The notes under the pieces are model-generated. The model saw only the letters and a program-made list of their open reading frames with translations. It was not told the origin of the DNA and searched no databases. This document shows, piece by piece, positions 12,378 to 45,240 of a stretch of 64,000 bases of DNA. The position numbers and the translations under genes were made by a program. How positions within the stretch are numbered: position 1 is the stretch's first letter; every line of letters starts with the position of its first letter. The stretch comes from Uranotaenia lowii (taxonomy: Eukaryota; Arthropoda; Insecta; Diptera; Culicidae), in assembly GCF_029784155.1 (NCBI RefSeq), contig NC_073693.1:111166683-111230682 (forward strand). Reading direction: 5' to 3'.

Positions 12378-12774
12378 TGTAGGAAATAATGGAAGTTAAT
12401 TGATAAATAATAACATTTACGATTGAATGAATAAAAAAAATATATATATATATTTGTTTGTTATTTGCTGACAAACACAAGTCAATAAAATATATCATAT
12501 ATAGATACACCCTTCCGATTCTTATGTCTCGAAAAGAATTATTCCTCAAAAGCACCATATGGGAAAAGCAAAACGCTACGGGGGTTCCGTGAGAGATACA
12601 CTCATTGTGAGAAAGACAACTGCTGAACTCTCGGAACGGTTTGAAATCTCGTCATTCAGTTGAGTAATTTTGGTGACAACGGATGCTCAAGTGTAACCAT
12701 ATATTTCGGTGTCGTGATTTCGTGAAGAACAATTTTAAAAATAAATTGGTGAAGAAAAATGGAAGAGCACCACA
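12378..12774 (+). repeat. E1 5-prime LTR
   Basis: This 397-bp repeat looks identical to 19199-19595. It starts TGTAGGAAATAATGG and ends GAGCACCACA. It contains an (AT)n run and an AATAAA-like motif. The predicted gag start codon (12759-12761) lies 16 bp before its end. Confidence 0.95.
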
Positions 12775-12790
12775 ATGGCGCAGCCGATAG
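12759..12790 (+). CDS. E1 predicted first coding exon (start codon inside the LTR)
   Basis: An ATG at 12759 in the LTR tail opens 32 nt that run through the end of the LTR and the primer-binding site and stop at CCGATAG|GTAAGT, an excellent splice donor at 12791. Thirty-two nucleotides leaves phase 2. The best acceptor ahead of gag, CCCTGTTTTCAG ending at 13607, also needs phase 2, so the join is in frame. A second ATG at 12775 would give the wrong phase. This is inference from signals and phase only. If correct, the first Gag residues are encoded by the LTR and the primer site. Confidence 0.5.
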
Positions 12791-13607
12791 GTAAGTAAAC
12801 CAATTCGAATTAATTGTTATTAAGTATGTGGGAACAAGTAATATCAAATTGAATTCGTTGAAAGAACAAAATGGCGGCTCAAAAAAAATCAAGATAACAA
12901 AGGAATGAAATCTACAAGGGCTTCACTATTTTCAACGCATATCGAACAACACAAAATGATTTAACAAGTGACCAGGATGGTATACAGTAAAATGTGGCAC
13001 GGAGTGCCTTGGAAATAAAACATTGATCTTGAAAGGAATCTGGTACAGAGTACCAATGATAGTACTGAGTACTATAGAGAGATGGTGACACAGTGTGTCT
13101 ATGTTTTTTGTTTCTGTGTTCGGTACAGAGTACCTTGGTAAATGATATAAAGTGCTATAAAATATTGTTGGTAAATGGCGGCACGGAGTGCCTTAAGAAG
13201 TTTACAATACATGATAACATAATAAGTGTTAAAATGTGCACGGAGTGCTTTCGGTAATAATCTGGTACAGAGTACCCTAGTTCGAAGTACAGTAGTAAAA
13301 TTATGACACAGAGTGTCTAAGATTATGTTCGGGTACAACGTACCTTGAAAAATGATGACACAGAGTGTCTAAGTTAATGATTGGGTACAGAGTACCTAAA
13401 TGAGTAAATGCATTCAGCGTATCTGCAAAGTAACGAGGTTATTTGGGGGAATAGGAAGCTCTTGTAGAAGGTTCGTTAATAAGAGTTCTAGATTTTTAAT
13501 TATTATAGTAACTACTAAGTAAAATAATAAATAAATTAAAATTTTGTGCCGTCATTTGTCAAGTTCAACAAATTTAAAAATGCGACCCTTTTGTTCCCTG
13601 TTTTCAG
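12791..13607 (+). other. E1 predicted intron 1 (817 nt) with a hairpin array
   Basis: The donor GTAAGT at 12791 matches the consensus exactly. The acceptor is a pyrimidine-rich ttgttccctgttttcag ending at 13607. The interior holds the mini-hairpin array and no long coding frame. It could instead be an unspliced 5-prime leader, with translation starting at a later ATG. Confidence 0.5.
12996..13396 (+). repeat. Array of about 12 covarying 13-nt mini-hairpins
   Basis: Units are 5-bp stems around a 3-nt loop: GGCAC-GGA-GTGCC, GGTAC-AGA-GTACC, GACAC-AGA-GTGTC, AGTAC-TGA-GTACT. Positions: 12996, 13042, 13061, 13087, 13122, 13180, 13238 (4-bp stem only), 13264, 13305, 13332, 13357 and 13384. The first bases of the left arm change between units, and the right arm changes with them so pairing is kept. 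Spacing is irregular, 19-58 nt. This is direct sequence evidence of selection for, or templated spread of, a structure. Confidence 0.8.
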
Positions 13608-15027
13608 TGGCTCGGGAACTAGTAACAGACTGCAACAGGTTTTGAAAGAGCTGGCGGATGAGAAACGTTTTTCAGAAAACCAAAAGGTTGAGTTAGAGAA
13701 AGCTAGAGAAACTATCAGATCCTTGCAAACACGACTGTGTGGTTCAATGTCAGAGCAACAGGTTATACGAGAATTGGAAGAAGAAAGAGTACGATCAGAC
13801 AGGTTATACGCAGAACTTAAAAAGGCACAAGATATGATACTAACACTGCAAAATGATGAAGAAAGGTCGAACAGTTCAGGGATACGTAGGAACGATGGTC
13901 CGTCGAGCACTCGTTACTCATGCGTAATAAACACTCCGGAAGAATCCCGCTTTATGACATCGGTCAACCAAATCTCTATTTCTACAATAAATATTCCGGA
14001 ATGCAAGGCTTTAAACGACTTCGAAGAAATTGATCGCGTAACCTTCGAAACGTGGAGAGATTTGTTGATGGACCACATGAAATTGGCAGGAGTATCAGAT
14101 GAGATAACACAGTTCACGGTTTTCAAGGTCAAAGCCGGATCCAAACTAATGCAAATCTTTAAAAACACTAAGTCCAATATTGATTCCCCAAATGCTACTG
14201 AACGTCCGTTTTCAAATGCCATGCACCGATTGCAAACTTATTTTGCAACTAGTTCAAATGCACTGCTACAGCGTCGTAAGTTGGCCTTGATCTCACAAGC
14301 CGTGGATGAATCCGATTATAATTTTGTCACTAGAGTAGCAGCAATTGCAAGGCTATGCGATCTAAGTGAGGACAAGGAATTCGGCGAAATTGTCAGCACA
14401 GTAGCGGGCCATGCTATAAATCCAGAAATTCGTAAAATGGCTCTAAGAATGCAGAGTCGTACCGGAACATTCACAGAGTTAATTGATAGGGTCCGAGAAA
14501 TAGAGGCTGAACGCATGAACGAAGAGTTTTTCCAAATGAAACACGGATCAAAACCGGCCGTTGTAGCTCCGATAAAAGCCGAACAAGGTCAATTCTTTCA
14601 AAGAAATACGCGTGGAATTAAACGTGAGTATCCAGTGCATCGACCCGGCACGTCATCTGAAAAGTTTAACGAACGCTGGAACGACCGGGCACATGAACGT
14701 TTTAACTTCTCTTCGGATCATCGTTGGAATGATCGTCCAAACGCACGCTCTTTCGATCGTAATCGCTTCATGGATAGCCGAGTCTCACCTTGGAGACCAG
14801 GTCCAAATCGTCGAGCAGAACGCTGCCATCGTTGTGATAAAATTGGCCACACACCGCAAAGTTGTTATTGGGTGAATGAACGCTGTACCAAATGTAATCG
14901 ACTTGGTCACTGTTTCACCACTTGTCGTTGGGAGAATAAACCACTCATCGAAAGGCACGAGGACACAGTTATACCGAAGAAAATAGCTGCAATTGAAGAT
15001 ATTGATAAGGATCATAATGTAGGTTAA
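13546..15027 (+). CDS. gag: E1 Gag (main exon)
   Basis: The open frame has 493 codons; if intron 1 is real, coding begins at 13608 and the first 20 codons are intronic. Residues about 25-110 are rich in E, K and L and probably form a coiled coil. The middle (about 165-335) is a capsid-like helical domain. A basic, R/N/F-rich stretch (about 365-420) precedes two CCHC knuckles, CHRCDKIGHTPQSC and CTKCNRLGHCFTTC, spaced CX2CX4HX4C, which bind the RNA genome. The frame stops at 15025, but in phase 0 it can join pol across the predicted intron at about 15019-15450. The frame is intact. Confidence 0.85.
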   Translation: MPSFVKFNKFKNATLLFPVFSGSGTSNRLQQVLKELADEKRFSENQKVELEKARETIRSLQTRLCGSMSEQQVIRELEEERVRSDRLYAELKKAQDMILTLQNDEERSNSSGIRRNDGPSSTRYSCVINTPEESRFMTSVNQISISTINIPECKALNDFEEIDRVTFETWRDLLMDHMKLAGVSDEITQFTVFKVKAGSKLMQIFKNTKSNIDSPNATERPFSNAMHRLQTYFATSSNALLQRRKLALISQAVDESDYNFVTRVAAIARLCDLSEDKEFGEIVSTVAGHAINPEIRKMALRMQSRTGTFTELIDRVREIEAERMNEEFFQMKHGSKPAVVAPIKAEQGQFFQRNTRGIKREYPVHRPGTSSEKFNERWNDRAHERFNFSSDHRWNDRPNARSFDRNRFMDSRVSPWRPGPNRRAERCHRCDKIGHTPQSCYWVNERCTKCNRLGHCFTTCRWENKPLIERHEDTVIPKKIAAIEDIDKDHNVG

Positions 15028-15450
15028 TTTTCTTCAATACTCTTTAAAACAGATTAACTTTCTATCCCTAACAACGAAATGTTGACTACTATGATTGAAT
15101 TAAGTTCTGTTTGTTAACGTTTCTTTTCACAATTAATCAGTTACGTAAATGTTAACTGTTATGATGGAATTAACTCTAACAACTGAATTTGCGATGAAAT
15201 GTTGTTATAACAACTTTCTTCCTAACAACCCTCTACCTAACGACCAAATGTTAACTGCTACGATTGAATTCACAATTTGTTTGAACCGTTTTGCTTTTGA
15301 CAATTAACGTTGATTACTATGATGGAATTAAACTTAAATTATTCGAATCACATTTGAAATTGAATCATTAAAATAGTTTTATAGAAAATAAAATAAAAAC
15401 AAAAAAAAATAATAATAATAAAACATGAAATGAAACGTTTTAATTTTTAG
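15019..15450 (+). other. E1 predicted intron 2 (about 432 nt) between gag and pol
   Basis: Removing 15019-15450 joins gag to pol in phase 0. The donor AAT|GTAGGT is weak; the acceptor ttttaatttttag is good. An alternative pair (donor at 15023, acceptor at 15469) also keeps frame, so exact borders are uncertain. Without removal, the gag stop and many stops in 432 nt separate protease from gag. The interior carries four diverged copies of a motif like aatgttaactgttatgatgg (15074-15335). Confidence 0.5.
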
Positions 15451-16316
15451 CTGCCTCACTTTCCCGAAGCAGTTGCTGTTTTAGCAACTAAGTTCGAAGA
15501 AGATGGCTTAATCACAGTAAGGTTGTCCGGCTTGGTCTGCCAATTCCTAATTGATTCTGGCGCCCAGGTGAACACAGTAACAGAGAAGATTTTTTCGGCA
15601 ATTCAGGCAAATGAAGAATTCAGATCTAGCTTGTTGAACGTTCAGAACAAAACGGATAGACCCTTAAAAGCATATGCGTCTCTGGGGGTGATTCAAGTTT
15701 CGGCGGTTTTTGAGGCACCACTCTACATATCTGAAGATCGTCCAGTATACGTAGAAAAGTTCTACGTGGTGAAGGAATCTCGATCATTGCTAAGCAGAGC
15801 AACAGCTCTACGCTACAACGTCTTGCTTTTAGGCTTAAAAGTTCCGGTAGAATGTAATGCCCGACAACTTTTAGCAATCGATATACATACAAAATTTCCT
15901 AAATTTAACATCCCTGCGATTAAAATTGATTACGACCGTACAAAACCACCATGCAGGAATGTATTCATGAACATACCACTAGCAGTAAAGCCATTAGTGG
16001 AAGAAAGATTGAAACAACTTATTTCAGCGGATATTATAGAAGCTGTTACAGACGACATGGATACTTCTTTTTGCTCATCCATGATCGTTGTGCCCAAAGG
16101 GAAGGATGATATCCGACTGGTGATAGACTTGCGTGGACCTAATAAATATATCAACAGAACGCCGTTCGCAATGCCGACTTTAGAGCATATTTTGGCTGAG
16201 TTGAATGGAGCTCAGTGGTTTTCAACCATTGACTTGGAGAATGCTTATTTTCATATTGAGTTGGACCCAGAATGTCGTCATTTAACTAATTTTTTCACTG
16301 AATTCGGCATGTTCAG
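15451..16316 (+). CDS. pol: E1 Pol exon: protease and N-terminal reverse transcriptase
   Basis: The open frame begins directly after the acceptor at 15450; no ATG is needed if it is spliced to gag. The aspartic protease signature FLIDSGAQVNTV is encoded at about 15544. RT fingers and palm follow: a KPLVEERLKQL segment near 15990, then VRLVIDLRGPNKYI and WFSTIDLENAYFHIEL, containing the first catalytic aspartate. The frame stops just past 16316, in the middle of the conserved RT block that should lead into LPFG; it continues at 16392 after a predicted 75-nt intron. Order and motifs are those of Ty3/gypsy. Confidence 0.8.
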
Positions 16317-16391
16317 GTATGTTTAATATACTGTGCAAATTGATATCGTTAATCAACCCCTTTAATTTCAAATTGAATTCAACATGTCTAG
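16317..16391 (+). other. E1 predicted intron 3 (75 nt) inside the RT domain
   Basis: The donor is CAG|GTATGT at 16317 and the acceptor is GTCTAG ending at 16391. Splicing is in phase 2 and rebuilds the conserved RT block exactly. Unspliced, a TAA follows within three codons. A 22-23-nt direct repeat brackets it (about 16300-16321 and 16375-16396, offset exactly 75), and each copy contains an AGGTATGT splice site. Confidence 0.65.
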
Positions 16392-18720
16392 GTATGTACG
16401 GCTTCCTTTTGGAATGTGCAACGCGCCTGACATATTTCAGGAGGTCTTACAAAGAATAATCCTCGAAGGATGTGAAGGTTGCAGAAACTATCTTGATGAC
16501 ATTCTTGTGTACGGGAAAACCAAAGAGGAGCACGACAGAAACCTTTCCAAAGCTCAGGCGAGGCTCGCAGAGCATAATGTTAAAATCAATTATGGTAAAA
16601 GTATTTTCTGCAGTCAGTCAGTGAAATTTTTAGGGTTCACCTTGACGCCCACAGGGTGGGAGATTGAAGATGGAAAACTTGAAGCGATAAGAAACTTCAG
16701 GAGACCAATGAATTGTTCGGAAGTAAAAAGCTTCTTAGGCCTTATAACGTATATGGACAAATTTATAATGCATCGAGCCTCGAAAACAGAGCGATTACGA
16801 GCCTTGTCCAATTCCGACAAATTTTATTGGAATGAGCAAGAAGATACGGAATTTGAGTTCCTACGAAAAGAAGCTCTTAACGCTATTAAAAAGCTCGGTT
16901 ATTATAATGCAAACGACAGAATAGAGCTTTTTGTGGATGCTTCACCTATAGGATTGGGTGCTGTAATGGTCCAGTACGACAGTGTAAACACACCTAGAAT
17001 CATAGCGTGTGCATCAAAAGCTCTCACATTGACAGAAAAAAAGTATCCCCACACACAGAAAGAAGCACTCGCTGTGGTGTGGGGTATCGAACGCTTTTCC
17101 TTTTACTTGATCGGCCAACCGTTCGTGGTAAGAACTGATGCCGAAGCGAACCAATTTATTTTTAATGGTGTTCACCGAATCGGAAAAAGGGCTACGACAA
17201 GAGCTGAATCTTGGGCACTTAGGTTGCAACCCTACAATTTTAAAATGGAGAGGGTGGCTGGAGAAGACAATGCTGCAGACGCATTATCCAGACTAATCCA
17301 AGAAACACAGCACGCTGAGCCCTTTGAAGACGATAACACAGATCACTTCCTCTATGCATTGGATGCATGTTCGATGGAGATAACTTGGGAAGACATCGAG
17401 AAACATGTCGAAAATAATATAGAACTACAAGGAGTAATAAAATCATTGGAAAGCGGATATTGGTCTCCCATGTTGAAAAAATACGAAAGCCAAAGAAACA
17501 GTCTTCATCGGCTAGGGAATATGCTATTTAAAGACGACAAAATTGTTCTGCCAGATAGCCTACGTCTAAAAGCAATGAAGTCAGCGCATGGAGGACACAT
17601 TGGGGAGGTGGCTCTTAAACGTATTCTACGAGAATATTTTTGGTGGCCAGGGCTAGCCCAAGCAGCTGAAAAATTTGTAAAGGGATGCAATACATGTAAC
17701 TTGTTATCCAAAAAAAATCCACCAGTTCCACTTTGCTCTAGAAATTTGCCAGATGGTCCGTGGGAGATACTCCAGATCGATTTCCTTTCGCTTCCTGGTT
17801 GTGGTTCGGGTGAGTTTCTCGTTACTGTAGACACATATTCGAGGTATTTATCTGTAGTGGAAATGCGAAGCAAAGACACACAATCTACTAATACTGCTCT
17901 ATGTGAAATTTTCAAAACGTGGGGCTTACCAAGAATCATTCAAAGCGACAACGGCCCTCCTTTCCAAGGTTCTCCCTTCTGTGATTTTTGGGAAGATAAA
18001 GGCATAAAAGTAAGAAAATCAATTCCACTAAGCCCTCAATCAAATGGAGCGGTTGAACGGCAAAACCAAGCCATAATTAAAGCGGTAGCTGCAAGTAAAG
18101 TAGAAGGTTTGAACTGGCGCACGTCTTTGGAGAAGTTTGTTCATAACCACAATACACTTATTCCACACGCGAGGCTCAAGGTCACACCCTTTGAGTTGAT
18201 GGTAGGGTGGAAATATCGAGGGACCTTTCCAGTTTTGTGGAGTAGGACCGTTGATAAACCTTTGGATAGAATAGACATTCGCGAAAAAGATTCGGAATCA
18301 AAACTGTCTAGTAAGATATACGCTGACACTTCTAGGGGTGCAAAATTATCGGACATTAATGTAGGCGACAAAGTGTTGATGGCGCAGTATAAAAAGTATA
18401 AAACTGACCCAACCTTCTCATCAGAATATTACCGAGTAATTGCAAGAAACGGTCCAAAAGTAGCCGTCATGAGTTCGAATGGCGTACAGTATAGCAGGAA
18501 TGTCCAAGATCTAAAAAAGATTGAGATGAACAAACCGGAATTGGAGAACAATTCAAAAGTAAATTTTAACACCGACTTACCGCGTGATACACCGGTCTTA
18601 GAATCCGACATTGTAATGGAACAACCGGAAGAAACTGGTACTAGTTCCCTAAGGTGCAGGGAAAGGATCAGAAAACCACAACGATTTGATGACAATTATG
18701 TCTATGCAGTATTTCACTGA
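16392..18720 (+). CDS. pol: E1 Pol exon: RT C-terminal part, RNase H, integrase
   Basis: The frame runs without interruption from the acceptor to TGA at 18720. RT continues with LPFGMCNAPDIFQEVL and the catalytic NYLDDILVYG (about 16485), then the connection. RNase H begins with ELFVDASPIGLGAVMV (about 16925). Integrase follows: a zinc-binding segment (AHGGHIGEVAL ... CNTC, about 17584-17700) and the catalytic triad, D in LQIDFLSLPG, D in QSDNGPPF and E in NGAVERQNQ. A C-terminal tail ends at YAVFH. No chromodomain and no env are visible. Intact frame and identical-looking LTRs suggest a recently active copy. Confidence 0.9.
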
Positions 18721-19198
18721 AACAAACACAAAAAGATTTGCTTAAGCGAGGTCATTAAACAAGTGAGTATGTACCAGTGTTTTTTCCCCTTTAACAATTT
18801 GTGACTATCACACTACGTTCTATCTTGTTACTGTATCCTTTATTCTGTAATTTTAGGCACCCGAATAACATACCTTCTACAATTCGAATAACAGAAAACA
18901 AATTTATGATGCAACTTATCACATTCATTTTTTATTTTGTTTTGATTGCTTTCCGGCGTCAGTAAGCGTGCGATGAAATATCGAATAGGAGTGTTCAATC
19001 GAATTTGTTTGAAACTGATTTCCACTGGTTTTTTTTTTCACTGAACAAAAAGGGGACAGGTCGTTCAGACCGGATTTGAATATAAAAACACTACAATAAA
19101 CTTGGCCATAAAATTCAAATGTTTGCTCTTTTTATATATCAAAACTAACAAAAGTTTCTAAAATGTACCGTGCTGATAAAGGTAGAGAAGGAGGGCAA
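18721..19198 (+). other. E1 3-prime untranslated region
   Basis: There is no frame of interest between the pol stop and the right LTR; in particular there is no env. The purine-rich tract gagaaggaggg at 19185-19195, three bases before the LTR, is the likely plus-strand primer. Confidence 0.7.
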
Positions 19199-19595
19199 TG
19201 TAGGAAATAATGGAAGTTAATTGATAAATAATAACATTTACGATTGAATGAATAAAAAAAATATATATATATATTTGTTTGTTATTTGCTGACAAACACA
19301 AGTCAATAAAATATATCATATATAGATACACCCTTCCGATTCTTATGTCTCGAAAAGAATTATTCCTCAAAAGCACCATATGGGAAAAGCAAAACGCTAC
19401 GGGGGTTCCGTGAGAGATACACTCATTGTGAGAAAGACAACTGCTGAACTCTCGGAACGGTTTGAAATCTCGTCATTCAGTTGAGTAATTTTGGTGACAA
19501 CGGATGCTCAAGTGTAACCATATATTTCGGTGTCGTGATTTCGTGAAGAACAATTTTAAAAATAAATTGGTGAAGAAAAATGGAAGAGCACCACA
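19199..19595 (+). repeat. E1 3-prime LTR
   Basis: This is the second 397-bp LTR of E1. No difference from the left copy was seen by eye. It is followed immediately by the second CGAGT of the target duplication. Confidence 0.95.
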
Positions 19596-19950
19596 CGAGT
19601 TACGAGCAAAGGCCTCATGTCGTCAGAGGAGAGGTCCTTAGTCTATAATCGTAACAAGAGGTAGGGTATATTTGCTAGAGTTTTGACTTGAAACCGAATA
19701 AGTCGATGAGAGCTTAAGCGCGGACTTGGTCTCCCTTCACGGGTACAGCCTTCGTTGCAGGTCCGAATGGGAATTATGGCCAGAGACCCCAGGTGGGCTT
19801 TATGGCGCAGGGGTACTTAGCATCTAGACTCAATCAATTGCACCCATGGACCCAGAGTAGCATACTGGAGAGACGCGGTGGCTCGCCGTTCCTTGGAATG
19901 CAATCCGTAAAAAGGATTTAACATCTGGGTGATCAACTAATAAAACAAAA
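19596..19950 (+). mobile_element. R1-type element, 3-prime part after the E1 insertion
   Basis: This continues the R1-type copy cut at 12377. The last 170 bp (19776-19945) match 10527-10700 with scattered substitutions, including gcacccatgga and gacgcggt-gctcgccgt. The end is A-rich (aactaataaaacaaaatgag), after which Jockey-like sequence resumes. Confidence 0.55.
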
Positions 19951-19954
19951 TGAG

Positions 19955-20061
19955 CAGGCAACATTTCTCAAGTCTTCAAGACTGCTATATGCTGATGACC
20001 TGAAAATCTACAGAGTTATTGACTGGATAGTGGACTGCGCTGCGCTGGCAACAAACTATTC
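19955..20061 (+). pseudogene. Jockey-like RT fragment (3-prime piece with YADD)
   Basis: One frame reads SSRLLYADDLKIYRVIDWIV, the catalytic box of a Jockey-type RT. It logically follows the fragment ending at 9802. Similarity ends near 20061, so the original element was already truncated. Confidence 0.6.
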
Positions 20062-20856
20062 CATTCCATAGTTAATACTATTCCATAGTTAATATTCATT
20101 CCAAACAAATGAACTTCTTGTAGCCATCCTTTTAAAATGAGTTTTGAAGGCAAAACGCAGCCAGATTGTTGTAGCAATTAGAAACAAAAAGCGGCCACAA
20201 GGAATCATGAAGGATTCAATGAAACCTAAAATAATGATGAAATTTTACCAAATACTGCTGTCATGCTTTTTTTAGCTAAATTTGGTAACAATTTGCCCAA
20301 ATAACGGTGAAACAATGTCCCAATATTGCTCTATCTTCTCACACAGATTACACAGTCATGCCAAATTTTAGATGTGTTCAAAGCTCATCGACACCTCGTG
20401 AAAACAGCCTTTTCAAAGTAATTTTGCCAAATTTTTGATGTATATTATCGAAACCAAAAACTGGCTTCACTGTGCTCTCAAAACGCGTTTTGAGAGGGTT
20501 GTTAATCTTGGTATCATTAAGGTTTCAGTGAAACCTACAGTTGATGTAATTGCTGTATCGGTACCTTTATGAAAAGTTAGACCCAAATTTTGGCACCATT
20601 ATTTGGTTAAAATTATACCTCATTTTTTACTAAAGGCTTGATAGCTAAATAATGTATAATTTGGCAAATACGTCTGCTCGAGTATACAATGTATTAATGT
20701 TCATGTATCTGTTGAGTTCGTATCTCGCCGGAGCTTCCATTTAAAAACCCTAAGAAAAATGAAAATAAAAGTAAAGCATTTGTCTATTCTATCGAAATCT
20801 GGTTTGTGCAAAACTGGATTGTAAAAAATTAAAAAGTTTCACATAGAGAAAAATTT
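20062..20856. other. AT-rich intergenic DNA
   Basis: No gene is visible. The motif ggtttcagtgaaacctac near 20520 and aaacctaaaataatg near 20222 hint at old repeat debris, but no element borders could be set. Confidence 0.35.
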
Positions 20857-21030
20857 CCCAGACAACCATTTGGTGGGTATTTCGAATTTGCAACGCAAAT
20901 ATACGTGCATATATACGTGTAGACATATCGTATATAATGTAGCAAAACCAGTATATACGTATCATTTTGGAGGCCATATAGGTACATTAGCAAACATATT
21001 CTTGATTTGGATTGTATTAAATTACGATTT
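20857..21030 (+). repeat. MITE fragment, CCCAGACAACCA family, copy 1
   Basis: It begins CCCAGACAACCATTTGGT and matches copy 2 (from 21956) for about 170 bp with roughly one difference in ten, including the shared gcaaaaccagtatatacgta. The right terminal repeat is not recognisable. Confidence 0.6.
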
Positions 21031-31561: not shown

Positions 31562-33162
31562 CACAGTGGGCCAGGAACCACACTTTTGCGGTCAAAACTG
31601 ACTGCAGGCCAGAGGCTTCGTTGTAGCTCATTGGTGTCTTCGACAAAGTTACTCGGCTATATTTGCGCTATCTATTGATGGATTTGAATTAGTTCTATTT
31701 TTCTCCGCAAGGTGGCACCAAAATCTAACTTTTCACAGAAGCAAGATACAGGCATGGTTTCTTGTACAAAGTTGTTCATTATACCTTTAACATCAACTTT
31801 GTAGAACATTGTTAAGCTCTATGTTGTGTACTTAACTTGCAAAAATAATAATTTAAGGAAACCTTGCAAAAAAATGGTTTTTTTCACCTATTTTTGTGTT
31901 TAGCTATACAATACCTCAAATTTCCACAGTATTCAATTGGAATAGACTTAAATGAGATATTCTAGTGGAAAACTTATTCGTTTCGCCGATTTTTTCTGTC
32001 AAAATTGCAAAAAATTGGTTAAAATTATACATTTTTCAAATTTCAATAACTTGCTTGCGAGCAGTTTGGCGCACCTCATTTTTCGAGAAGTGACAGCTGT
32101 GATTATGTTCTAAATGCATGAAAAAAATGTCGGTGGGTTCTCGTGGGTTCCTTGCCAAATGATTTAATAAAGTTGGTAAGTTTTCAATACAAATCCACAT
32201 ATTTTAAGACCTTTTTCAAAGAAAACATCCGAATTTCTCGTAGAAAAGTCGAATTTTCATCGTTCAATTATTGGAGTTGCTGCTTGAATAAATAATTCAG
32301 CACATTTTTCGCACTTTTAATCTAATTAGAAAAAAAAAATAAAAATTTTCAAAAATTTATTTAAATAAAAAACAGTTTTAAATTATTTTTTATTTTTTTC
32401 AAATAAATTTTACAAAATGTGCTTAATCGCTTAATTAAGCATCACAATGGACTACAGCAATAATAAAACGACGAAAATTCGACTTTTCTACGAGAAATGT
32501 GGATGTTTTCTTTGAAAAAGGTCTTAAAATATGTTGATTTGTATTGAAAACCTTTGTGAAATCATTTGGCAAGGAACCCACGAGAACCCACCGACATTTT
32601 TTACATGCATTTAGATCATAATCACAGCTGTCACTTCTCGAAAAATGAGGTGCGCCAAACTGCTCGCAAGCAAGTTATTGCGATTTGAAAAATGTATAAT
32701 TTTAACCAATTTTTTGCAATTTTGACAGAAAAAATCGGCGAAACGAATAAGTTTTCCACTAGAATATCTCATTTAAGTCTATTCCAATCGAATACTGTGG
32801 AAATTTGAGGTATTGTATAGCTAAACACAAAAATAGGCGAAAAAAACCATTTTTTTGCAAGGTTTCCTTAAATTATTATTTTTGCAAGTTAAGTACACAA
32901 CATAGAGCTTAACAATGTTCTACAAAGTTGATGTTAAAGGTATAATGAACAACTTTGTACAAGAAACCATGCCTGTATCTTGCTTCTGTAAAAAGTTAGA
33001 TTTTGGCGCCACCTTGCGGAGAAAAATAGAACTAATTCAAATCCATCAATAGATAGCGCAAATATAGCCGAGTAACTTTGTCGAAGACACCAATGAGCTA
33101 CAACGAAGCCTCTGGCCTGCAGTCAATTTTGACCGCAAAAGTGTGGTTCCTGGCCCACTGTG
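31562..33162. mobile_element. Fold-back Transib-like element (non-autonomous)
   Basis: Two arms of about 700 bp (31562-32265 and about 32465-33162) are near-perfect inverted copies around a diverged core of about 200 bp. Termini start CACAGTGGGCCAGGAACCAC, and TGTCG flanks both sides (31557-31561, 33163-33167). A CACAGTG end with a 5-bp, GC-rich duplication is characteristic of Transib, the transposon family related to RAG1, whose signal heptamer is CACAGTG. Twenty-three bases after the heptamer is TCAAAACTG, which shares the CAAAA core of the RAG nonamer. There is no transposase, so mobility would need one in trans. Confidence 0.65.
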
Positions 33163-33167
33163 TGTCG

Positions 33168-35660: not shown

Positions 35661-35664
35661 TGAA

Positions 35665-35684
35665 TTTTTTTTTTTTTTTTTTTT
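35665..35684 (-). other. Poly-A tail of the minus-strand non-LTR element
   Basis: Twenty T on the plus strand follow ctcac in element orientation, marking the 3-prime end. An AATAAA is present some 90 bp upstream in element orientation, near 35762. Confidence 0.75.
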
Positions 35685-37252: not shown

Positions 37253-39118
37253 CTATGCGTGGTTGGGTTGCTCGTGTACTACGTTGTGATGTGTCAGTTG
37301 ATCATTCAGATGAGAATGGATTATTGTCATCGCTTGGAACTCTCTTAGAGCCTGGATAGGTAATGTTGAATTAACAGCTTCGGAATACAAATTTTTTGTA
37401 GGGTACATTCTGTGGCGATTGTAGACGGCTTTGAGGCAACGGTTTTGAGCAGCTTGCAATTTTTTTAAGTGGGTATTTGCTGCAGCTCCCCAGATGAAGA
37501 TAAGGTACTGTAGCTTTGGTTGTACGAGCGCCTGGTACATCAACGATAACTGTTTTGTAGGAACAATGTTTTTCATCTTCCAAAGTAAGCCGCATGTTGC
37601 GCTAACTTGTTTTTGAAGTTTCTTTATGTGGTAGTCCCACTTAAGCTTGCAATCAATATCCAGACCGAGGTATGTGTAGTGGTAAACCTTTTCGATTGGT
37701 ATTGAATCTACTATCAGATCCCCATGTACTTGCTCTGATCTCCTGGGTGTGGATAAAATCATGTATTTGGATTTTGTAAGATTCAATGATAGTAGATTTT
37801 CATCGAAGTATCTTCTTAGAACTTCCATGTCAGCGCACATGCTTTCGACTATTGCGGTAGAATCGTTTCCAGTGTAGAATAGAGATGTGTCATCAGCAAA
37901 AAGACGTGGCTTTCCGTTCAAATTCAGATTTGGCAGATCATTCACATATATCAGGAATAGAAGCGGCCCAAGATTGCTTCCTTGTGGTACCCCCACTTTT
38001 AACGGACGATTATTGCTACGTACTCCATTTATGGAAACAAATTGACATCTGCCAGTAAGGTAGCTTCAAATTAACTCCAGAGCATTGCCTCGTATGCCGT
38101 AATATGCAAGTTTTTCGAGTAAGATTTTATGGTCTATAGTGTCGAATGCCTTTTTCAGATCTAAGAAGAGAAGTCCAGCCATTTTATTTTTATCGAGAGC
38201 TTTGTAGACATCATCAAATAGCTCATAAGTTGCTGTTGTTGTACTAGAGCCGGCACGGAATCCGTATTGGCAGTTATAGAGGATGTTATGTTCTTGGAAA
38301 AATTTTGTAATTCTAGTAGCCATCATTTGTTCTAGGATTTTGCTAAGAGAAGAAAGTACTGATATCGGCCGATAGTTGTTTACGTCGACTCTTGATCCAG
38401 CTTTATGGATTGGAACAACCTTTGCTATCTTCAAGCAATCAGGATATTTTCCGGTGACAAGGCTTTCGTTGAATACATCACGTAACAGTTTCGAGAAGAA
38501 CCGATGATGCTGTCTGATGAAGTGCGCAGGTATTCCATCAGGACCTATACTTTTATTGTTATCGAGGTCTTTGATTTTCAAAATCACCTCTTGCTCGGTT
38601 GCTGGTTCCAGGAAAATAGAGTTTCGTAGGTTAATTAGAGTTCCAAATCGGTTGGCATTTCTCTGGCTGTTTATAGTAGATGCAAGCTGGGGCCCTATGT
38701 TGCTAAAGAAGCAGTTGAACGTGTCTGCAACTATCTCCGCATTGCTTGTAAGGTTTCCATTGATAATTAGTTTTGGTGTTTCATGCTCATCAAATTGGTA
38801 ACCAGATATGGAATTCAAATATTTCCACGTACTCCTGCAGTAAGCGTTTCTGAACAAATTGCTGTAATATGCTTGTTTCGCGTCTTGTTTGCACTGTTGC
38901 AGTTTCATCGACGCGTGCTTCAATAGGTTTCGAGTGTTTATGTCTGATGGATTTCTTTTTGATCTTGTTAGGAGAGAATCTTTGATTTTTATCCATTTCC
39001 AAACGTCAACGTTCATCCAAGGACATAATCCTTTAACTTTGGCCTTTACTTCGACAGTTTTGGAATACTCGGCCTTAAGCTTTTGGTATGTTTGTAATAC
39101 TTTTTTAAGAAGTTCTTC
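37253..39118 (-). pseudogene. Non-LTR ORF2 reverse transcriptase domain
   Basis: One frame covers the RT in order: KSIGPDGIPAHFIRQH, NYRPISVLSSLSKILEQMM, YGFRAGSSTTTATYELF, LFLDLKKAFDTIDHKILL (first catalytic D), then after a nonsense codon at 38066-38068 the same frame gives GVPQGSNLGPLLFLIYVNDL and RLFADDTSLFYT (catalytic DD; a F-ADD rather than Y-ADD box). The thumb continues to an end at 37253. A single TGA in an otherwise open frame implies a recent loss. The upstream endonuclease half lies beyond E2 at 45241-46083. Confidence 0.8.
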
Positions 39119-39123
39119 GGCTG

Positions 39124-39362
39124 TGTAGGGTCCTCCTCGTCCGTTTAATATCACTACCGTCACAATATATCCCGGCCGTTCCGTTCGCGCACTGTTCAGA
39201 CCGATAGACGCCTTCGTTCTCCTCTTTTACACACGCTCATCCAAATCTACGCATCCAATATACAGTGTTGCCATATTTCTTGTCTCCTACTAAACTCGTG
39301 GCGCAAGGTCTGTAAATAATCAGGTGTTAACAAATTGTATATATTAAATGCACAACCCTACA
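39124..39362 (-). repeat. E2 3-prime LTR
   Basis: This 239-bp repeat starts TGTAGGGTCC and ends CAACCCTACA in plus-strand reading. No difference from 45002-45240 was seen. Confidence 0.95.
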
Positions 39363-39407
39363 TCCCTACCTTTCATTTAAAAGAAATTAAAAATCAAATT
39401 AGAGTTG

Positions 39408-39833
39408 TCAATATGTTACAAAATCCTTCAATCGGCTTGATTCAACCTTTGTCCTTCTTGAACGTTCATTGGAAAGAGTTTCATTGGAATCTGGTGTTGT
39501 TATCCGATTTGAAACATCTTGGTTTTCTTCTAAACTTTCATCGGAGGGATCCTTAGCTTCAGACTGAGATGCTATGCGTTTAAGATGGGCTACACTTCTT
39601 CTGAACTCCTTTCCGGAAGTAGTTGATTTAATCATAACGTCAGTTCCTTGTCTTTTTGTAACCTTGAACTCTTCAGGAGAAAAATCGGAAGCAAGTTTGT
39701 TATCCTTCTTAGTTCGCTTCGCAAGCACTAGGTCACCAATATCAATGCTACTGAATCTAGCTTTTCTGCTACGATCAGCATACAGCCTACCTTTTTCTTT
39801 TTTGGATTCGGTCATGATCTCTGACTTCTTCAT
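39408..39833 (-). CDS. pol: E2 Pol C-terminal tail, shifted frame
   Basis: This continues the integrase C-terminal region after the frameshift: GRLYADRSRKARFSSIDIGD, then VLAKRTKKDNKLASDFSPEE and a hydrophilic tail ending KDFVTY. The LxxGDLVL-type segment is a typical GPY-region-like end of Ty3/gypsy integrases. It is not an independent gene. Confidence 0.75.
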   Translation of the reverse strand: MKKSEIMTESKKEKGRLYADRSRKARFSSIDIGDLVLAKRTKKDNKLASDFSPEEFKVTKRQGTDVMIKSTTSGKEFRRSVAHLKRIASQSEAKDPSDESLEENQDVSNRITTPDSNETLSNERSRRTKVESSRLKDFVTY

Positions 39834-41520
39834 CTTCGCAAACCTTCACAGGGATACAGGGTAACTTGGTACGTAACCGTCGTCCGAACATCAGTTCTGA
39901 TGGAGACTTTCCTGTAGTTGGGTGTATCGCAGAATGATAAGTTAGCAAATATTGACGAAGCTCCTTCCGCCAATTTTTCCCAAGCTCTTGCGCAATACGT
40001 AGCCGTTTGAGAATAGATCGGTTCTGACGCTCTACCTCCCCATTCATTTGAGGCCAGTACGGAATAGTACTCTCAAGCCGAATCCCTTGTTCTTCACAAA
40101 ATAGACGGAATTCCTCAGAAATAAATTGGGGTCCATTATCTGCTCTCAAGACCACTGGCAGTCCATATCGAGAAAATATAATAAGCAACTGTTCAATTGT
40201 GGAGGTTGTTGTGATTTCTTGCATTTCTACTACTTCCAAATATCTACTGTAGAAGTCAACACATACAAAAAGATTCTCACCGTCTGGGAGTGGCCCCAAG
40301 AAATCAACAGCGATTTGTTCCCATGGTCGCGATGGGAGCTCCTTCCAGACCATTGGTTCTGGTGGACCAGGTGCGGAAACTAAAGTGCAACCGCGACAGG
40401 ATTTCACGAATTGCTCAATGTTTTGATCCATTTTTAGCCACCACACGTTTGCGCGTAAATGTCCTTTCATCATGCGCATGCCCGGATGACCTTCGTGAGC
40501 CAGATGTAAGACACGTTGATGAAGTCTTTTTGGGATTACAATCCGATCTCCTCTCAGCAACACATTATTCACGCAACAAAGTTCGGAAAATATTGTCTTA
40601 TAGCTTAAGGGTAACTCATCTACGGTTTCAGAATTCAATGCGGCTATAACTTGTTGTATATCTTCATCTTCTTTACTAACCGTCTCAATCTCTTGCCATG
40701 TCAAGGCGATTGTCTGGGCAGCAGCAGAAGCAATCTCTCGAACCACTAACTCCTCTGCTTCATCAAAAGGTTTTGGAGATGACGTAGACAGTCGCGACAT
40801 TACGTCAGCGATGTTAGACTCACCCGGAATATGGATGATGTTATACGTAAAACTTTGGAGGCGCAACACCCATCTCTCGATTCGGGCACAGGGACGAGAT
40901 GCTGGTGCGAACAAGAAAGTAAGAGCTTTGCAATCAGTGAGTAAGTTAAACTCCCTACCAATTAGGTAGAACTGAAATTTTTCTACACTCCATACCAAGG
41001 ATAAAGCTTCTTTCTCGGTTTGGCAATATCTTCTTTCTGTGTCGGTGAGAGATTTGGAAGCGTAACATACGACCCTTGAACCTCTTTGCTCATTAGTTTG
41101 AATCAAAACAGCGCCCAAAGCAACCGGACTGGCATCCGCAAACAAAGAAGTTTCATCCTCTGTTCTAAAAAATCCTAAACAACTAGCCTTAGATAACGTC
41201 GTCTTTATCCAATTGAACGCCATCTCTTCTGCATCACCCCACCGAAACTGATTTCCTTTCTGTATGAGTTTTCTGAGTGGTTCATCCATTTCTGATAGCT
41301 TCGGAATGAATTTACCCATATAGTTAGCTAATCCTAAAAAGCTTCGGACCTCACTTTCATTTGCTGGACGGCGAAAATCCATAACAGCGTCTCGCTTAGC
41401 ATCTGATGGCATTATGCCTTGAGAACTGATTCTATGCCCAAGAAAATCGAACTCCGTAACTCTTATTTTACATTTTTCCCAATTCAGAACAACTCCCCTT
41501 TCTTTAAGTTTTTGAAGGAC
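39787..41520 (-). CDS. pol: E2 Pol C-terminal exon: RT thumb, RNase H, integrase
   Basis: Coding restarts at 41520 and encodes RT thumb (FDFLGHRISSQGIMPSD), RNase H (TSLFADASPVALGAVL; then the TERRYCQTEKEALSLVW segment) and integrase: zinc-binding LAHEGHPG...CRGC, then D in IAVDFLGPLPDG, D in RADNGPQF, E in NGEVERQNRSI. The frame stops prematurely at 39787, within the A-rich ccaaaaaagaaaaagg tract, while the other frame carries the true C-terminus (39833-39408). One base gained or lost in this homopolymer region explains it. Confidence 0.85.
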   Translation of the reverse strand, partial: VLQKLKERGVVLNWEKCKIRVTEFDFLGHRISSQGIMPSDAKRDAVMDFRRPANESEVRSFLGLANYMGKFIPKLSEMDEPLRKLIQKGNQFRWGDAEEMAFNWIKTTLSKASCLGFFRTEDETSLFADASPVALGAVLIQTNEQRGSRVVCYASKSLTDTERRYCQTEKEALSLVWSVEKFQFYLIGREFNLLTDCKALTFLFAPASRPCARIERWVLRLQSFTYNIIHIPGESNIADVMSRLSTSSPKPFDEAEELVVREIASAAAQTIALTWQEIETVSKEDEDIQQVIAALNSETVDELPLSYKTIFSELCCVNNVLLRGDRIVIPKRLHQRVLHLAHEGHPGMRMMKGHLRANVWWLKMDQNIEQFVKSCRGCTLVSAPGPPEPMVWKELPSRPWEQIAVDFLGPLPDGENLFVCVDFYSRYLEVVEMQEITTTSTIEQLLIIFSRYGLPVVLRADNGPQFISEEFRLFCEEQGIRLESTIPYWPQMNGEVERQNRSILKRLRIAQELGKNWRKELRQYLLTYHSAIHPTTGKSPSELMFGRRLRTKLPCIPVKVCEDEEVRDHDRIQKRKR

Positions 41521-41632
41521 CTGAAACCATGGTAAGTGATAAAGATGGAGTTAAAAAAATGAGTTTATTACAAAGTCAATTTGAGTTATTTATTTCAGAA
41601 ATTTCGCAAGATATTTATTTATGTCATCATAC
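41521..41632 (-). other. E2 predicted intron in RT (112 nt)
   Basis: Donor AATAAG|GTATGA; acceptor ttaccatggtttcag ending at 41521. The length is not a multiple of three and stops occur inside, so the RT thumb could not be made without removal. Phase 0 on both sides. Confidence 0.7.
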
Positions 41633-41697
41633 CTTATTCAAACGAACATCATGTTCTTCAACGGTGCTTCCTTCGACTCCTACATCGTCAAGGTACC
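41633..41697 (-). CDS. pol: E2 RT exon piece with the YLDD box
   Basis: This short piece, between the MITE and the next intron, encodes WYLDDVGVEGSTVEEHDVRL, the RT catalytic box. Its frame matches the exon upstream of the MITE once the MITE and one target copy are discounted. It ends AATAAG|GTATGA (donor at 41632). Confidence 0.7.
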
Positions 41698-41705
41698 AGT
41701 AAGCG

Positions 41706-42206
41706 TAAGCTTGCCAGATTGCCCGGTTTTATCCGGGTTTGCCCGGATATTTGATGCAAAATTTCGAGAAAGTCCGGTCCGGCCCGGTTGCCCGGATATC
41801 GTGAAAAAAGTCCGGATATTGCCCGGATTTTTTCTCAATTTTCACAAAGAAACCAATAAAATTCAAAGTTTTTGAGTAAGTTTCAGCAAAATCAATTAAG
41901 GGTATGGAAATTTTCAACGGTTGTTTCAAATAATTTCGCTGATTTACTTTTATAAACCTTTAAATATTTAAGTGTTCTAAAAAGTTTTTAGAAGTCTGCA
42001 ATTACATTAATAAAATATTAATTTAATTTTTTTTTTGCATTTTTTCTTTGCTTTTATGTATAATAACACCTAAATTTTGCCCGGTTTTTGCCCGGTTTTT
42101 GGATTTGAAAAACTGAAATCCATGCCCGGATTTTGCCAGGTTTTTTTGAAAAAATGCCCGGAATTGCTAGGCCCGGATGGGAGTGGAAAAAATTCTGGCA
42201 ACCTTA
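41706..42206. mobile_element. 501-bp MITE, cccgg family, with 8-bp target duplication
   Basis: The ends are TAAGCTTGCCAGATTGCCCG and, on the other strand, TAAGGTTGCCAGAATTTTTT. AGTAAGCG flanks both sides (41698-41705, 42207-42214), an hAT-type 8-bp duplication. The body alternates ccgg-rich words (gcccggatat, ttgcccggtt). It interrupts the RT gene of E2 just before the catalytic YLDD, so it is the youngest layer of this nest. Related copies: 56302-56798 (almost full length, opposite orientation) and fragments near 2270, 23330 and 30768. Confidence 0.85.
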
Positions 42207-42214
42207 AGTAAGCG

Positions 42215-43742
42215 CCTTCACAGTCTGCTAGAATTTGATCCATGGTTCTTTGAAATATTTCAGGAGCAGAGACAAGACCGAAGGGAAGACGCTTGAATCG
42301 ATAAAGCCCACGATGAGTAATGAACGTCATCACATTTCTACTTTCTTCATCAAGCTCCAGTAGGAAAAACGCGTCCATAACATCCAGTACACTCCAGATC
42401 TTCCCTCTTCCAATCCTGGCAAGAACATCTTCGATAACTGGCATGGGGTGCCGATCGCGAATGACTGCCTGGTTGACACGTCGTAAATCCACGCACAATC
42501 TTATTGATCCGTTAGCCTTGTTTGCGACCACAAGCGGCGAAACCCACGTTGCCGGACCTTCCTTAATTTCGATTATGTCTCGCTTTAGAAGTTCGTCTAA
42601 CTTCTCGGTCACTGCTGCCTCAAGGTGAATCGGTACTCGTCTCAATGGCTGGAAGATTGGAACTGCCTTTGGATCCATCTGAACACGAACTTGAACACCG
42701 GAAATCTTAGAAAACGGAGAACGCTTTACATCTGTTCCATCCATCACCTGATTCACTTCCAATCCTATTCTCAATATTCCCAAATTTTTAGAGGTCTCAT
42801 CTCCCAACAGGTTTCTTTGCCCACCTTCAACAACGAAGAATTTACAGTTTGATGCGCGTTTCCCAATCTCAACGATGGCTTCGAATGTTCCCAAAATAGG
42901 AAGTGGTTCATTGTTAGCGTAGGCCTTGAGGATTTTATCACTTCCTTTTTCGCACTTGTCTACGTTAACATGTTGAGCTTTCAGCTTTGTCCATGTCTCA
43001 GAAGTTATTATATTTACGTCTGAACCCGAATCGATAAACACTTCAGTTTCAACACCTCCAATTGCACAGTTGAACACGTTAGTTTTGCATCCCGTGTAGA
43101 ACGTATAACACAGCTTCTTTTCAGATTCAAATGACGTCGTACAAGATTTAATGTCTTGGCTTGGCATGTTTTCATCTACCTCAATTGCATCAACTTTTTT
43201 AGAAAAATCAGGTTTTCGCGAACTAAAAACGCGTTTTCGGCAGACTTTCTCAAAATGTCCAAGCCTCTGACATCTCCGACAAGGTTGATCTCTTGCTGGA
43301 CATACTTGTGATTTAGAAATGTGTCCTTGACGTCCACAACCGTAGCAGATAATTTCGGGTCCATTACCAAAAATTTTACGAGGCCCAACAGCAATTCGTT
43401 TCAGAATTCTTCCTTGCTGGCGTTCTGCTTTTGGTTTCCATGTTCCGACTTCACAAACCGATATATGTCCACCATCATTCATATTCGTTCCAGCTTTGAA
43501 CTCCTTTTCCTGATGTCGTACACTCTCCAGCGAAGTTCCCATGGCCTCAATATCTGACAAGGACTGATCTTTCTCCAGAATCTTCCTTCGAAGCTCTGGT
43601 AAGTTGCATCCTTCCACAATAATGTCGATGAGCATGATCTCCTCCAAAACAATGCGGACCTCTTTCGAATACTTTTCAAATCCGCAGTCCATCAGTTGCT
43701 GGCGCAGACGCAAAACGTAATGAGCGAAACTCTCATTCGTAC
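42215..43742 (-). CDS. pol: E2 Gag C-terminus, protease and N-terminal RT
   Basis: The exon continues gag through two zinc knuckles, CYGCGRQGHISKSQVC (unusual six-residue final spacing) and CRRCQRLGHFEKVC (canonical CX2CX4HX4C). Protease has EVFIDSGSDVNIIT. RT follows: IKEGPATWVSPLVV, IRLCVDLRRVNQAVI, WSVLDVMDAFFLLEL (catalytic D) and YRFKRLPFGLVSAPEIF. Unlike E1, gag and pol are in one exon and the LPFG region is not split. The frame ends at the MITE insertion; the YLDD box follows on its other side (41697-41633). Confidence 0.85.
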
Positions 43743-43823
43743 CTAGTTGATTGCAACATTCAAAAAAAAGTTAGATCTTGAATTGAAATAATGAAAAGAC
43801 AAATCGAATCAACTAAATCATAC
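43743..43823 (-). other. E2 predicted intron in gag (81 nt)
   Basis: Donor GTATGA at 43823; acceptor gcaatcaactag ending at 43743. Splicing in phase 1 restores one continuous gag frame. The intron contains in-frame stops. Confidence 0.7.
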
Positions 43824-44154
43824 CTTGCTTCATAGTGCGTAGCTTATGTCTCTCCAGAACATCTTGACGACGCGGTTTGAAATACGCATCCAAACGACTG
43901 ATTACTACATCATACCAAGGCTTCTCTACCATAACCAGAGGAAAATCTTCAGTGCCCTCCAAACTTTTGTAAACTTTTTGCAACTGAGGACCCCCAAAAT
44001 GTAACATTTTGGACCGTTTGATTTTCTGGTCGGTTATTTGATATGAGTCAAAATAAAACTCCAGCGAATCTTTCCACTCCCGCCATTCCTTGGCCAGTTT
44101 ACCGTTCTCGATTTGTTCACATCTGAACATAGGCAACGGTCTACTTTCATCCAT
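43824..44154 (-). CDS. gag: E2 Gag, first coding exon
   Basis: It starts with ATG at 44154, directly after a splice acceptor, and encodes about 110 residues beginning MDESRPLPMFRCEQ. It has the acidic, aromatic-rich look of a Ty3/gypsy matrix/capsid N-terminus (WREWKDSLEFYFDSYQ). The exon ends AGCAAG|GTATGA at 43824; phase 1 fits the next exon. Read through, it would stop within a few codons. Confidence 0.75.
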
Positions 44155-44962
44155 CTGAAAACCGGAAATAGAAAAAAGACAATCTCAATGTTTAATTTTC
44201 CTTACAGCCCCCACCAATACTTGAAATAAACTGGTTCAAAATTTTTAGAATGTTCCACAACATAATTTTCAACAATAACAACTTCTGTCTGGATAGCTTG
44301 TTTGTCTTTAAAAAAAAATTAAGAAAACTTGAACGACGCAAATTTAAAAACTTTATTTCAGTTACATCCTGACAGACAACCCCAAAACCAGTTATTACTA
44401 ACAGCATCTCTTTGCTCAGTTTACTCACAAACTCATTTAAAGCACTGACCATAATACTAAAATTTTATTTTGAAAAACGATTAACAAAAATCACAATACT
44501 CACGGCTGAAATTAGCATCAACAAAAAAATTATATAACGTTCCATCTCCACACTATTTTGTGCACTCTCAATTTCTGTTTTCAAGTGTTCGTCCCTAGAT
44601 CCGACTCTGGTAAATTGCAAGCACCGAAACGATCAACACAGAATGATTAATGATTAACAAATACGACGAATATGTGAAACCTTTCACTTAATACCGATCA
44701 AATCTGTTTCAAATAGGCCACGGAATTGGACTAACCTCTAATTATGGATAAACTCGATCTCACTTTAGCGTTTTCAAAATCTCTTGTTACTTTTCTCACA
44801 AATTTCTATTCGGTACCATTTCTGCTATCGATAATACACCCATGTACAATTTTGACCGCCATTTTGTTTTCGTTTCCAAGCCACATTTCGATAGCTGATC
44901 ATTTCTTTTTACCAAAAAAAAACCCGGCTAAATTCTTTTTAATGTCCAGGAAACAAACTCAC
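44155..44962 (-). other. E2 predicted leader intron (808 nt)
   Basis: A strong donor, CATCAAG|GTGAGT, lies about 30 nt after the primer site (donor G at 44962). The acceptor ttccggttttcag immediately precedes the gag ATG (44154). The interior is AT-rich without coding frame. The placement parallels intron 1 of E1. Confidence 0.6.
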
Positions 44963-45001
44963 CTTGATGTCCTGTGGTTCTTTCTCCCGCTCGTCGCCAG
45001 T

Positions 45002-45240
45002 TGTAGGGTCCTCCTCGTCCGTTTAATATCACTACCGTCACAATATATCCCGGCCGTTCCGTTCGCGCACTGTTCAGACCGATAGACGCCTTCGTTCTCC
45101 TCTTTTACACACGCTCATCCAAATCTACGCATCCAATATACAGTGTTGCCATATTTCTTGTCTCCTACTAAACTCGTGGCGCAAGGTCTGTAAATAATCA
45201 GGTGTTAACAAATTGTATATATTAAATGCACAACCCTACA
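45002..45240 (-). repeat. E2 5-prime LTR
   Basis: This is the second copy of the 239-bp LTR, upstream of the primer-binding site in element orientation. It is followed on the plus strand by the GGCTG target duplication. Confidence 0.95.

Follow-up and report, generated by a model that had tools for sequence, protein, structure and literature searches.

In a 64,000-nucleotide stretch of DNA from the mosquito Uranotaenia lowii (contig NC_073693.1, positions 111,166,683 to 111,230,682; hereafter the window), two retrotransposons, E1 (12378-19595, forward strand) and E2 (39124-45240, reverse strand), are each interrupted by three GT-AG segments. Comparison of these elements with their relatives makes it very probable that some Ty3/gypsy lineages of mosquitoes have a life cycle based on two RNAs, in which the RNA that is copied is largely unspliced and Gag-Pol is translated from spliced RNA. 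In such a cycle, one transcript would have two fates, genome or message. A transcript escaping splicing would serve as the genome, being packaged and reverse transcribed, with the introns restored in the new copy. A spliced transcript would be the Gag-Pol mRNA, in which removal of a leader intron, situated immediately 3′ of the primer-binding site (PBS), would link the leader to gag and, in some families, removal of an intron within the reverse transcriptase (RT) would link both halves of pol. The textbook view is that retrotransposition erases introns. An earlier interpretation, made from the letters of the window alone (the sequence-only reading), had proposed that unspliced RNA is copied and spliced RNA translated. 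This remains the best explanation of the comparative evidence, with the amendments that the introns are not one unit, that spliced retrocopies exist and that plants offer precedents.

Both elements are Ty3/gypsy LTR retrotransposons, as each has a pair of long terminal repeats (LTRs), a short target-site duplication (TSD) and a pol region ordered as RT, RNase H and integrase, with the Pfam order RVT_1, RT_RNaseH, Integrase_H2C2 and rve. The sequence-only reading had described identical LTR pairs and intact 5-bp duplications, and alignment bears this out. The E1 LTRs (5′ LTR, 12378-12774; 3′ LTR, 19199-19595; forward strand) are identical at 397 of 397 positions and lie between two copies of CGAGT (12373-12377 and 19596-19600, unstranded), while those of E2 (5′ LTR, 45002-45240; 3′ LTR, 39124-39362; reverse strand) are identical at 239 of 239, with CAGCC as the duplication. 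All six GT-AG segments that had been located were likewise recovered. In E1 (forward strand), these are intron 1 or the leader intron (12791-13607, GTAAGT...TTTTCAG), intron 2 (15019-15450), which separates nucleocapsid from protease, and the 75-nt intron 3 within RT (16317-16391). In E2 (reverse strand), they are intron 1, again the leader intron (44155-44962, GTGAGT...TTTTCAG and then ATG), the 81-nt intron 2 in gag (43743-43823) and the 112-nt intron 3 at the LNK / VLQKL boundary (41521-41632), hereafter the RT intron. The five segments inside coding sequence preserve phase, as had been claimed, and the first of E2 belongs to the untranslated leader.

The copies in the Uranotaenia lowii genome are considered next, and it should be noted that all such own-genome counts are lower bounds, with junction windows read for 40 of 80 matches. 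The E1 family comprises L009 (truncated, 99.5-100% identical to E1), L010, L011, L012, L013 (internally deleted) and L024 (76-80% identical in coding segments). All three E1 introns are found in E1, L010 and L011; in L012, intron 3 is a 74-nt GT-AG gap, and L024 has introns 1 and 2. In the E2 family, the RT intron occurs in nine loci (E2 and L015-L022) with a length of 111-145 nt, its donor and acceptor kept and its body drifting. E2, L015 and L017 have E2 intron 2, as does L016 in shortened form; L020, L022 and L023 lack it. Six pairs were compared (E1 with L010, L011 and L012; E2 with L015, L017 and L022, with Ks about 1.7 for the last of these), and the ratio of nonsynonymous to synonymous divergence (Ka/Ks) came to 0.05-0.15 both upstream and downstream of the introns. 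The exons flanking the introns are under purifying selection, while intron bodies drift and splice sites persist. As judged from this persistence in other copies, the GT-AG segments are not a product of chance.

The introns also survive recent transposition. In 14 insertions, the LTR pairs differ at four sites or fewer, the figures being mismatches over aligned positions with gaps uncounted; some pairs are gapped, and some alignments may slightly overrun the LTR end. Besides E1, the values in its family are 0/369 for L011, at most 1/373 for L010 (the single mismatch possibly lying beyond the LTR end), 2/383 for L013 and 1/280 for L024. Besides E2, they are 0/238 for L015, 2/245 for L016, 2/214 for L018, 2/254 for L020, 1/252 for L021 and 4/263 for L022, to which L078 (0/221) and L080 (0/224) are added. 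Target duplications are readable in 12 of the 14 and not in L018 and L022. L078 alone lacks an intron that its family would predict, although in L013 and L018 internal deletions leave the introns only partly readable. The claim of recent transposition with introns kept thus extends well beyond the two elements of the window. Since many separate recent insertions retain introns, they were made from RNA still holding introns. Introns kept through recent transposition are also what a retroelement with two RNA pools, like the barley element BARE1 discussed below, would show.

Their distribution shows that the introns do not behave as a single unit. In this sample, nearly every element has the leader intron; the RT intron goes far back, and two others, intron 3 of E1 and intron 2 of E2, were gained recently. 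Of the 18 elements whose PBS could be read, 17 have the leader donor 3′ of it, a count that leaves out three further PBS-like places; the exception is L084. The 17 are the E1-type E1, L009, L010, L011, L013 and L024/L036, together with E2, L015/L026, L016/L027, L018, L020/L030, L021/L032, L022/L034, L023/L037, L078, L080 and L082. The acceptor was read in all of them except L013 and L018, which have deletions, and L080. In L012/L029, L017/L028 and L083, the stretches read yielded no PBS. The PBS was assigned by position and by likeness among copies rather than by a tRNA match, and we take it to resemble tRNA-Ser. Measured from the PBS start, the donor is 15 bases away in E1-type and 19-37 bases away in E2-type elements, and it is mostly strong (GTAAGT and GTGAGT, also GTAAGC and GTACGT). 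In E1, L010, L011 and L013, an ATG stands at the LTR end with the PBS after it within exon 1, and in E1 the frame of this ATG continues into gag. Exon 1 of L082 carries the ATG between the PBS and the leader intron, and in E2 the gag ATG directly follows the leader acceptor, with 12 ATGs inside the intron. Given this placement of the gag ATG and the 12 intronic ATGs, removal of the leader intron would be needed, or nearly so, for Gag.

The RT intron was followed in protein relatives of both halves of E2. For the first half (ORF1-type, from open reading frame, ORF), the best 120 of 256 relatives were considered; 106 of these 120 reach the YLDD region, and 94 of the 106 end at the RT intron site. 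All 59 of 59 Logan/ENA relatives end within seven residues past the first intron codon. Among NCBI gene models, which may have introns already removed, 35 of 47 end at the RT site, and P0279 reads through. These 35 models come from nine species, namely Uranotaenia lowii, Wyeomyia smithii, Toxorhynchites rutilus, Sabethes cyaneus, Armigeres subalbatus, Ochlerotatus camptorhynchus, Aedes albopictus, Topomyia yanbarensis and Malaya genurostris. For the second half (ORF2), 44 of the nearest 58 relatives (P0121-P0178) begin at or after the acceptor and 14 span the RT site. Twelve of the 44 begin at or just before the acceptor and 32 deeper in the exon, so that the intron is unproven for these 32, which carry the label INTRON in the trees. 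P0145 and P0157 were assigned by eye, and P0165 is absent from the first tree and P0193 from the second. In the genome itself, 40 further RT junctions were read, with an intron-like gap in 29 (27 by script, and L038 and L072 by eye, where the script was off by 1-2 bases) and continuous sequence in 11. Together with E2, L015-L022 and L023, the RT intron is found at 38 of 50 loci, distant clades included, and on this distribution it is old. The sequence-only reading would have been refuted had most other copies lacked the segments; with the leader intron in 17 of 18 elements and the RT intron at 38 of 50 loci, this is not the case. GT...AG ends kept across copies are what is expected of spliceosomal introns, and the sole exception among the RT junctions is L071, whose predicted donor is not GT.

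A subclade without the RT intron at the usual site (P0138, P0144, P0151, P0333 and P0335) was also observed. P0151, one of the 14 spanning relatives, begins at a splice-like end, DAFLQ|V, where P0333 and P0335 stop, and P0138 and P0144 group with P0151 in the tree (100/100). This splice-like break upstream of the usual site may reflect loss of the intron with a new gain, or its relocation.

Natural retrocopies lacking single introns can be read as footprints of splicing, and as such they confirm the predicted boundaries and are the closest evidence to splicing at hand. L023 has a single unbroken frame across the RT site and retains the leader intron. Because the intron-bearing L038 has identical flanking exons (200/200 and 45/45, or 245/245 bases), L023 represents a fresh and exact loss of the RT intron. 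No LTR pair was found for L023; the tree places it within a group of intron-bearing rows (100/99), and its nearest row, P0122, is of unproven intron state. L051/L078, compared with L049 and L052, lacks the RT intron exactly, and all other family members read (L049, L050, L052 and L053) have it; its LTRs are identical (221/221), its TSD is GGAAC, the leader intron is retained and there is a further frame break. L082 belongs to a family without the RT intron and retains the leader intron. That the leader intron is never lost was ruled out by a probe for the spliced junction. For the E2 family, this spliced-leader probe matched one place with 3 mismatches, L084, a decayed and truncated copy in which the leader exon is fused exactly to the gag ATG and gag intron 2 is still recognisable. 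The corresponding probe for E1 matched no place, while an unspliced control matched nine places, of which six had no more than one mismatch. As for the intronless copies that the sequence-only reading asked about, the retrocopies found (L023, L078 and L084) have each lost a single intron. The precise removal seen in L023, L051/L078 and L084 is that expected of spliceosomal introns.

As for gains, of 120 relatives listed, some of them gene models, five lack the motif, and none of the other 115 has E1 intron 3 at the site; the DNA of L024 is also without it. Its ends sit in a 23-nt near-repeat, 19 of 23 positions being identical by eye, and the spacing of 75 nt equals the intron length. This fits a gain by tandem duplication. 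E2 intron 2 is also young.

The leader intron of E1 contains an array of 11 perfect hairpins with a 5-bp stem and a 3-nt loop (12996-13396, forward strand), against 1.1 in shuffles (500 shuffles, maximum 6). The leader introns of L010, L011, L012 and L013 have 9, 11, 6 and 12, respectively, of which the value for L012 merely equals the shuffle maximum. When sites were picked by the core AC[AGT]GAGT alone, 47 were obtained in five copies, and the outer three pairs are Watson-Crick in 47, 46 and 43 of them and the next stem position in 13 of 47, as compared with 7, 7 and 4 at 24 control sites elsewhere. The same pairing test gave 10, 10, 6 and 4 of 10 in the L036 leader intron. As several stem sequences occur, it is pairing, rather than sequence, that appears to be kept; the counts are, however, not independent, since the units are related by duplication. 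Orthologous hairpins compared by eye across copies show one stepwise compensatory change and a few broken stems, with most covariation among repeat units. Folded as a whole, the region does only weakly better than shuffled sequence (z -1.46, with as good a value in 10 of 100 shuffles), so it is the local hairpins that carry the case. These suggest that the E1-type array is an RNA element and a candidate mark of genomic RNA. An Rfam search gave no match. Beside these hairpins, the L036 leader intron has three repeats of TGGCCAGGGGCCTT, itself a further short stem whose loop consists of purines, together with an apparent inserted element with ATAAGA...TCTTAT repeats.

Stop codons adjoin the donors. 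Of 21 distinct RT-intron donors, 19 are followed by an in-frame stop no more than three codons from the GT codon (e.g., 41632), against an expectation of 0.215 that was taken from the same introns, and the donors are not independent samples. In all five coding introns of E1 and E2, a stop begins within the first nine intron bases, although L015-L017 have not preserved the one in E2 intron 2. With stops so placed, unspliced RNA would mostly yield a cleanly ended product, and selection for such an end is possible.

Taken together, we infer that Gag-Pol in the mosquito would come from spliced RNA, that spliced RNA would mostly be excluded from particles and that the mark of genomic RNA would sit in the leader intron, which in E1 contains the hairpin array. 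A more specific proposal, whose probability we place somewhat short of even, is that in a mosquito-wide set of Ty3/gypsy elements the leader intron is a genome/message switch and bears the packaging mark (in E1, about ten covarying hairpins). Its excision would remove the mark and join the leader to gag, start codon included in some families. As genomes would then be chosen by what splicing would destroy, extra introns would be harmless passengers, and these retroelements would therefore gain rather than purge them, tandem duplication being the probable source of one. Several points weigh against the two-RNA cycle and should be considered here. Splicing is read from DNA and gene models, and the protein search left out candidates longer than 1.75 times the query, so that continuous gag-pol copies are under-counted. 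Among the distant ORF2 relatives listed (P0179-P0240), 59 of 62 read through the RT site and 3 do not, which confines the RT intron to one clade. This intron is also dispensable, given that the frame of L023 is intact without it and that the L082 family does without it. Spliced RNA can be copied, which L084, though decayed, extends to the leader intron, and the exclusion of spliced RNA would thus be leaky, with two precise losses of the RT intron and one of the leader intron. Finally, no hairpin array was found in the E2 leader intron, the fold of which is no better than that of shuffles. Of the structured RNA 3′ of the splice donor that would mark a retroviral packaging signal in the leader, E1-type leader introns thus show a clear hairpin array and E2 none, and a hairpin signal general to leader introns was rejected.

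Such leaks are also what would be seen without dedicated sorting, if germ-line splicing were simply inefficient, for example through piRNA-directed repression, and unspliced RNA were copied as the most abundant form. PIWI-interacting RNA (piRNA)-dependent repression of splicing is known in Drosophila, the differing intron combinations of L023, L078 and L084 resemble random partial splicing, and some RT donors deviate from the full consensus. We give this alternative an appreciable chance, albeit well below even, as the leader intron is better kept (17/18) than the RT intron (38/50) despite its mostly strong donors; the two samples differ in depth, and the contrast is suggestive only. Very improbable is a reading without splicing, under which the segments would be insertions or decay products within defective copies that intact ones had mobilised in trans. 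The E2 copy is indeed broken by a foreign insertion and a frame change, and the internally deleted L013 and L018 have LTRs identical at 381/383 and 212/214 positions, which fits mobilisation in trans or later deletion. However, splice sites at the same codon in nine mosquito species and at 38 of 50 loci, selection on the exons flanking the introns, natural losses that are exact at the predicted boundaries and the long open exons that flank the RT intron in L015 contradict decay or private insertion. Hardly credible is a route to pol by translational bypass, re-initiation or frameshifting, with the segments as spacers. The in-frame stops after 19 of 21 RT donors might equally reflect a bypass signal, but there is no ATG near the start of the E1 pol exon, nearly all copies read have GT and AG ends (L071 excepted), and removal is exact in L051 and L023; frameshift and bypass were rejected on these grounds.

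The two-RNA cycle proposed here can be compared with known systems. In retroviruses, the splice donor lies downstream of the PBS, as it does in E1 and E2. Penelope-like elements are retroelements whose genomic copies keep introns; unlike E1 and E2, they are not LTR/gag-pol elements. Among plants, LTR elements with introns are known (Ogre, BARE and EVD). The plant Ty3/gypsy element Ogre is spliced between ORFs and keeps the intron in the genome (PMC3735527, PMC12786077), as E1 and E2 do; in contrast to Ogre, the mosquito elements form an intron clade with a near-universal leader intron by the PBS and with further introns gained and lost. BARE1, a barley Ty1/copia element, has separate RNA pools for translation and replication, of which the replicated RNA is unspliced, and its splicing excises 104 nt to give a Gag-only mRNA (PMC3735527), while mosquito splicing would create the Gag-Pol frame. 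For EVD, an Arabidopsis Ty1/copia element, unspliced RNA is retained in the nucleus and spliced RNA favoured for translation, and splicing with early polyadenylation gives a short Gag mRNA (PMC8892269). Its Gag-Pol comes from unspliced RNA, whereas that of the mosquito elements would need splicing. The Caenorhabditis elegans Ty3/gypsy element Cer1 must export unspliced genomic RNA (PMC10309623); in retroviruses and Cer1, unspliced RNA gives Gag-Pol and spliced RNA gives Env or CERV, again the reverse of what the mosquito elements would require. In the Mag lineage of mosquito Ty3/gypsy elements, the PBS is mostly complementary to tRNA-Ser or tRNA-Leu, and three Culex Mag elements have tandem repeats in the 5′ untranslated region (PMC3286476). 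The portion of this text on the Mag lineage mentions no introns within elements, unlike E1 and E2, and the available parts of two mosquito LTR surveys mention introns only as insertion sites (PMC3286476, PMC3026039). No report of introns inside animal, including mosquito, Ty3/gypsy elements was found in the literature searched, from which subscription papers were mostly outside, and the novelty for animals is thus provisional. An animal LTR clade that keeps introns, with copies in one genome showing gain, retention through recent insertion and single losses, makes it testable how a retroelement distinguishes genomic RNA from mRNA and how introns arise.

The remaining parts of E1 (forward strand) are as follows. 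The gag ATG at 12759 lies within the 5′ LTR and starts coding exon 1 (12759-12790), in which the PBS (12776-12790) is translated in frame. Exon 2 (13608-15018), supported by its ORF and Ka/Ks, encodes Gag with two zinc knuckles that were seen by eye and for which a Pfam search gave no match. Exon 3 (15451-16316) encodes the protease (by eye) and the N-terminal part of RT, and exon 4 (16392-18720) the remaining RT, RNase H and integrase, both from ORFs and Pfam. Intron 2 contains, by eye, four or five degenerate repeats of approximately AAATGTTAACTGCTATGATTGAATT.

In E2 (reverse strand), which sits in the ORF of a long interspersed nuclear element (LINE) that is divided into an endonuclease part and an RT part, the untranslated leader exon (44963-45001) holds the PBS TGGCGACGAGCGGG. 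Exon 2 (43824-44154) is the start of Gag, and exon 3 (42207-43742), from its ORF and Pfam, encodes the remaining Gag, the protease (by eye) and the N-terminal part of RT. The RT is interrupted immediately upstream of YLDD by a 501-bp hAT-like miniature inverted-repeat transposable element (MITE; 41706-42206, reverse strand) that is foreign to the element and has an 8-bp TSD, CGCTTACT; the hAT label comes from the TSD length and the ends, rather than from a family search. The RT exon then continues (41633-41705) with the second TSD copy and the residues from YLDD to EEHDVRLNK. Exon 4 (39408-41520) encodes the remaining RT, RNase H and integrase, the tail of which is out of frame here, the end of the integrase ORF lying in a different frame (overlapping ORFs 39787-41550 and 39408-39845). 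A copy elsewhere, 99% identical, is open for 713 amino acids. With the MITE in RT and the out-of-frame integrase tail, both overlooked by the sequence-only reading, this copy of E2 is broken despite its identical LTRs.

A second copy of the MITE, 93% identical, is found at 56301-56778, with a weaker match (73%) at 2246-2370. Scans of viral contigs found no relatives of the elements, and these retroelements account for many of the mosquito entries that NCBI names "uncharacterized protein K02A2.6-like". Elsewhere in the window, 4794-5906 holds diverged direct repeats that are 67-71% alike, and the 1.6-kb stretch at 31562-33162 is a 92% self-complementary palindrome, perhaps a foldback element.

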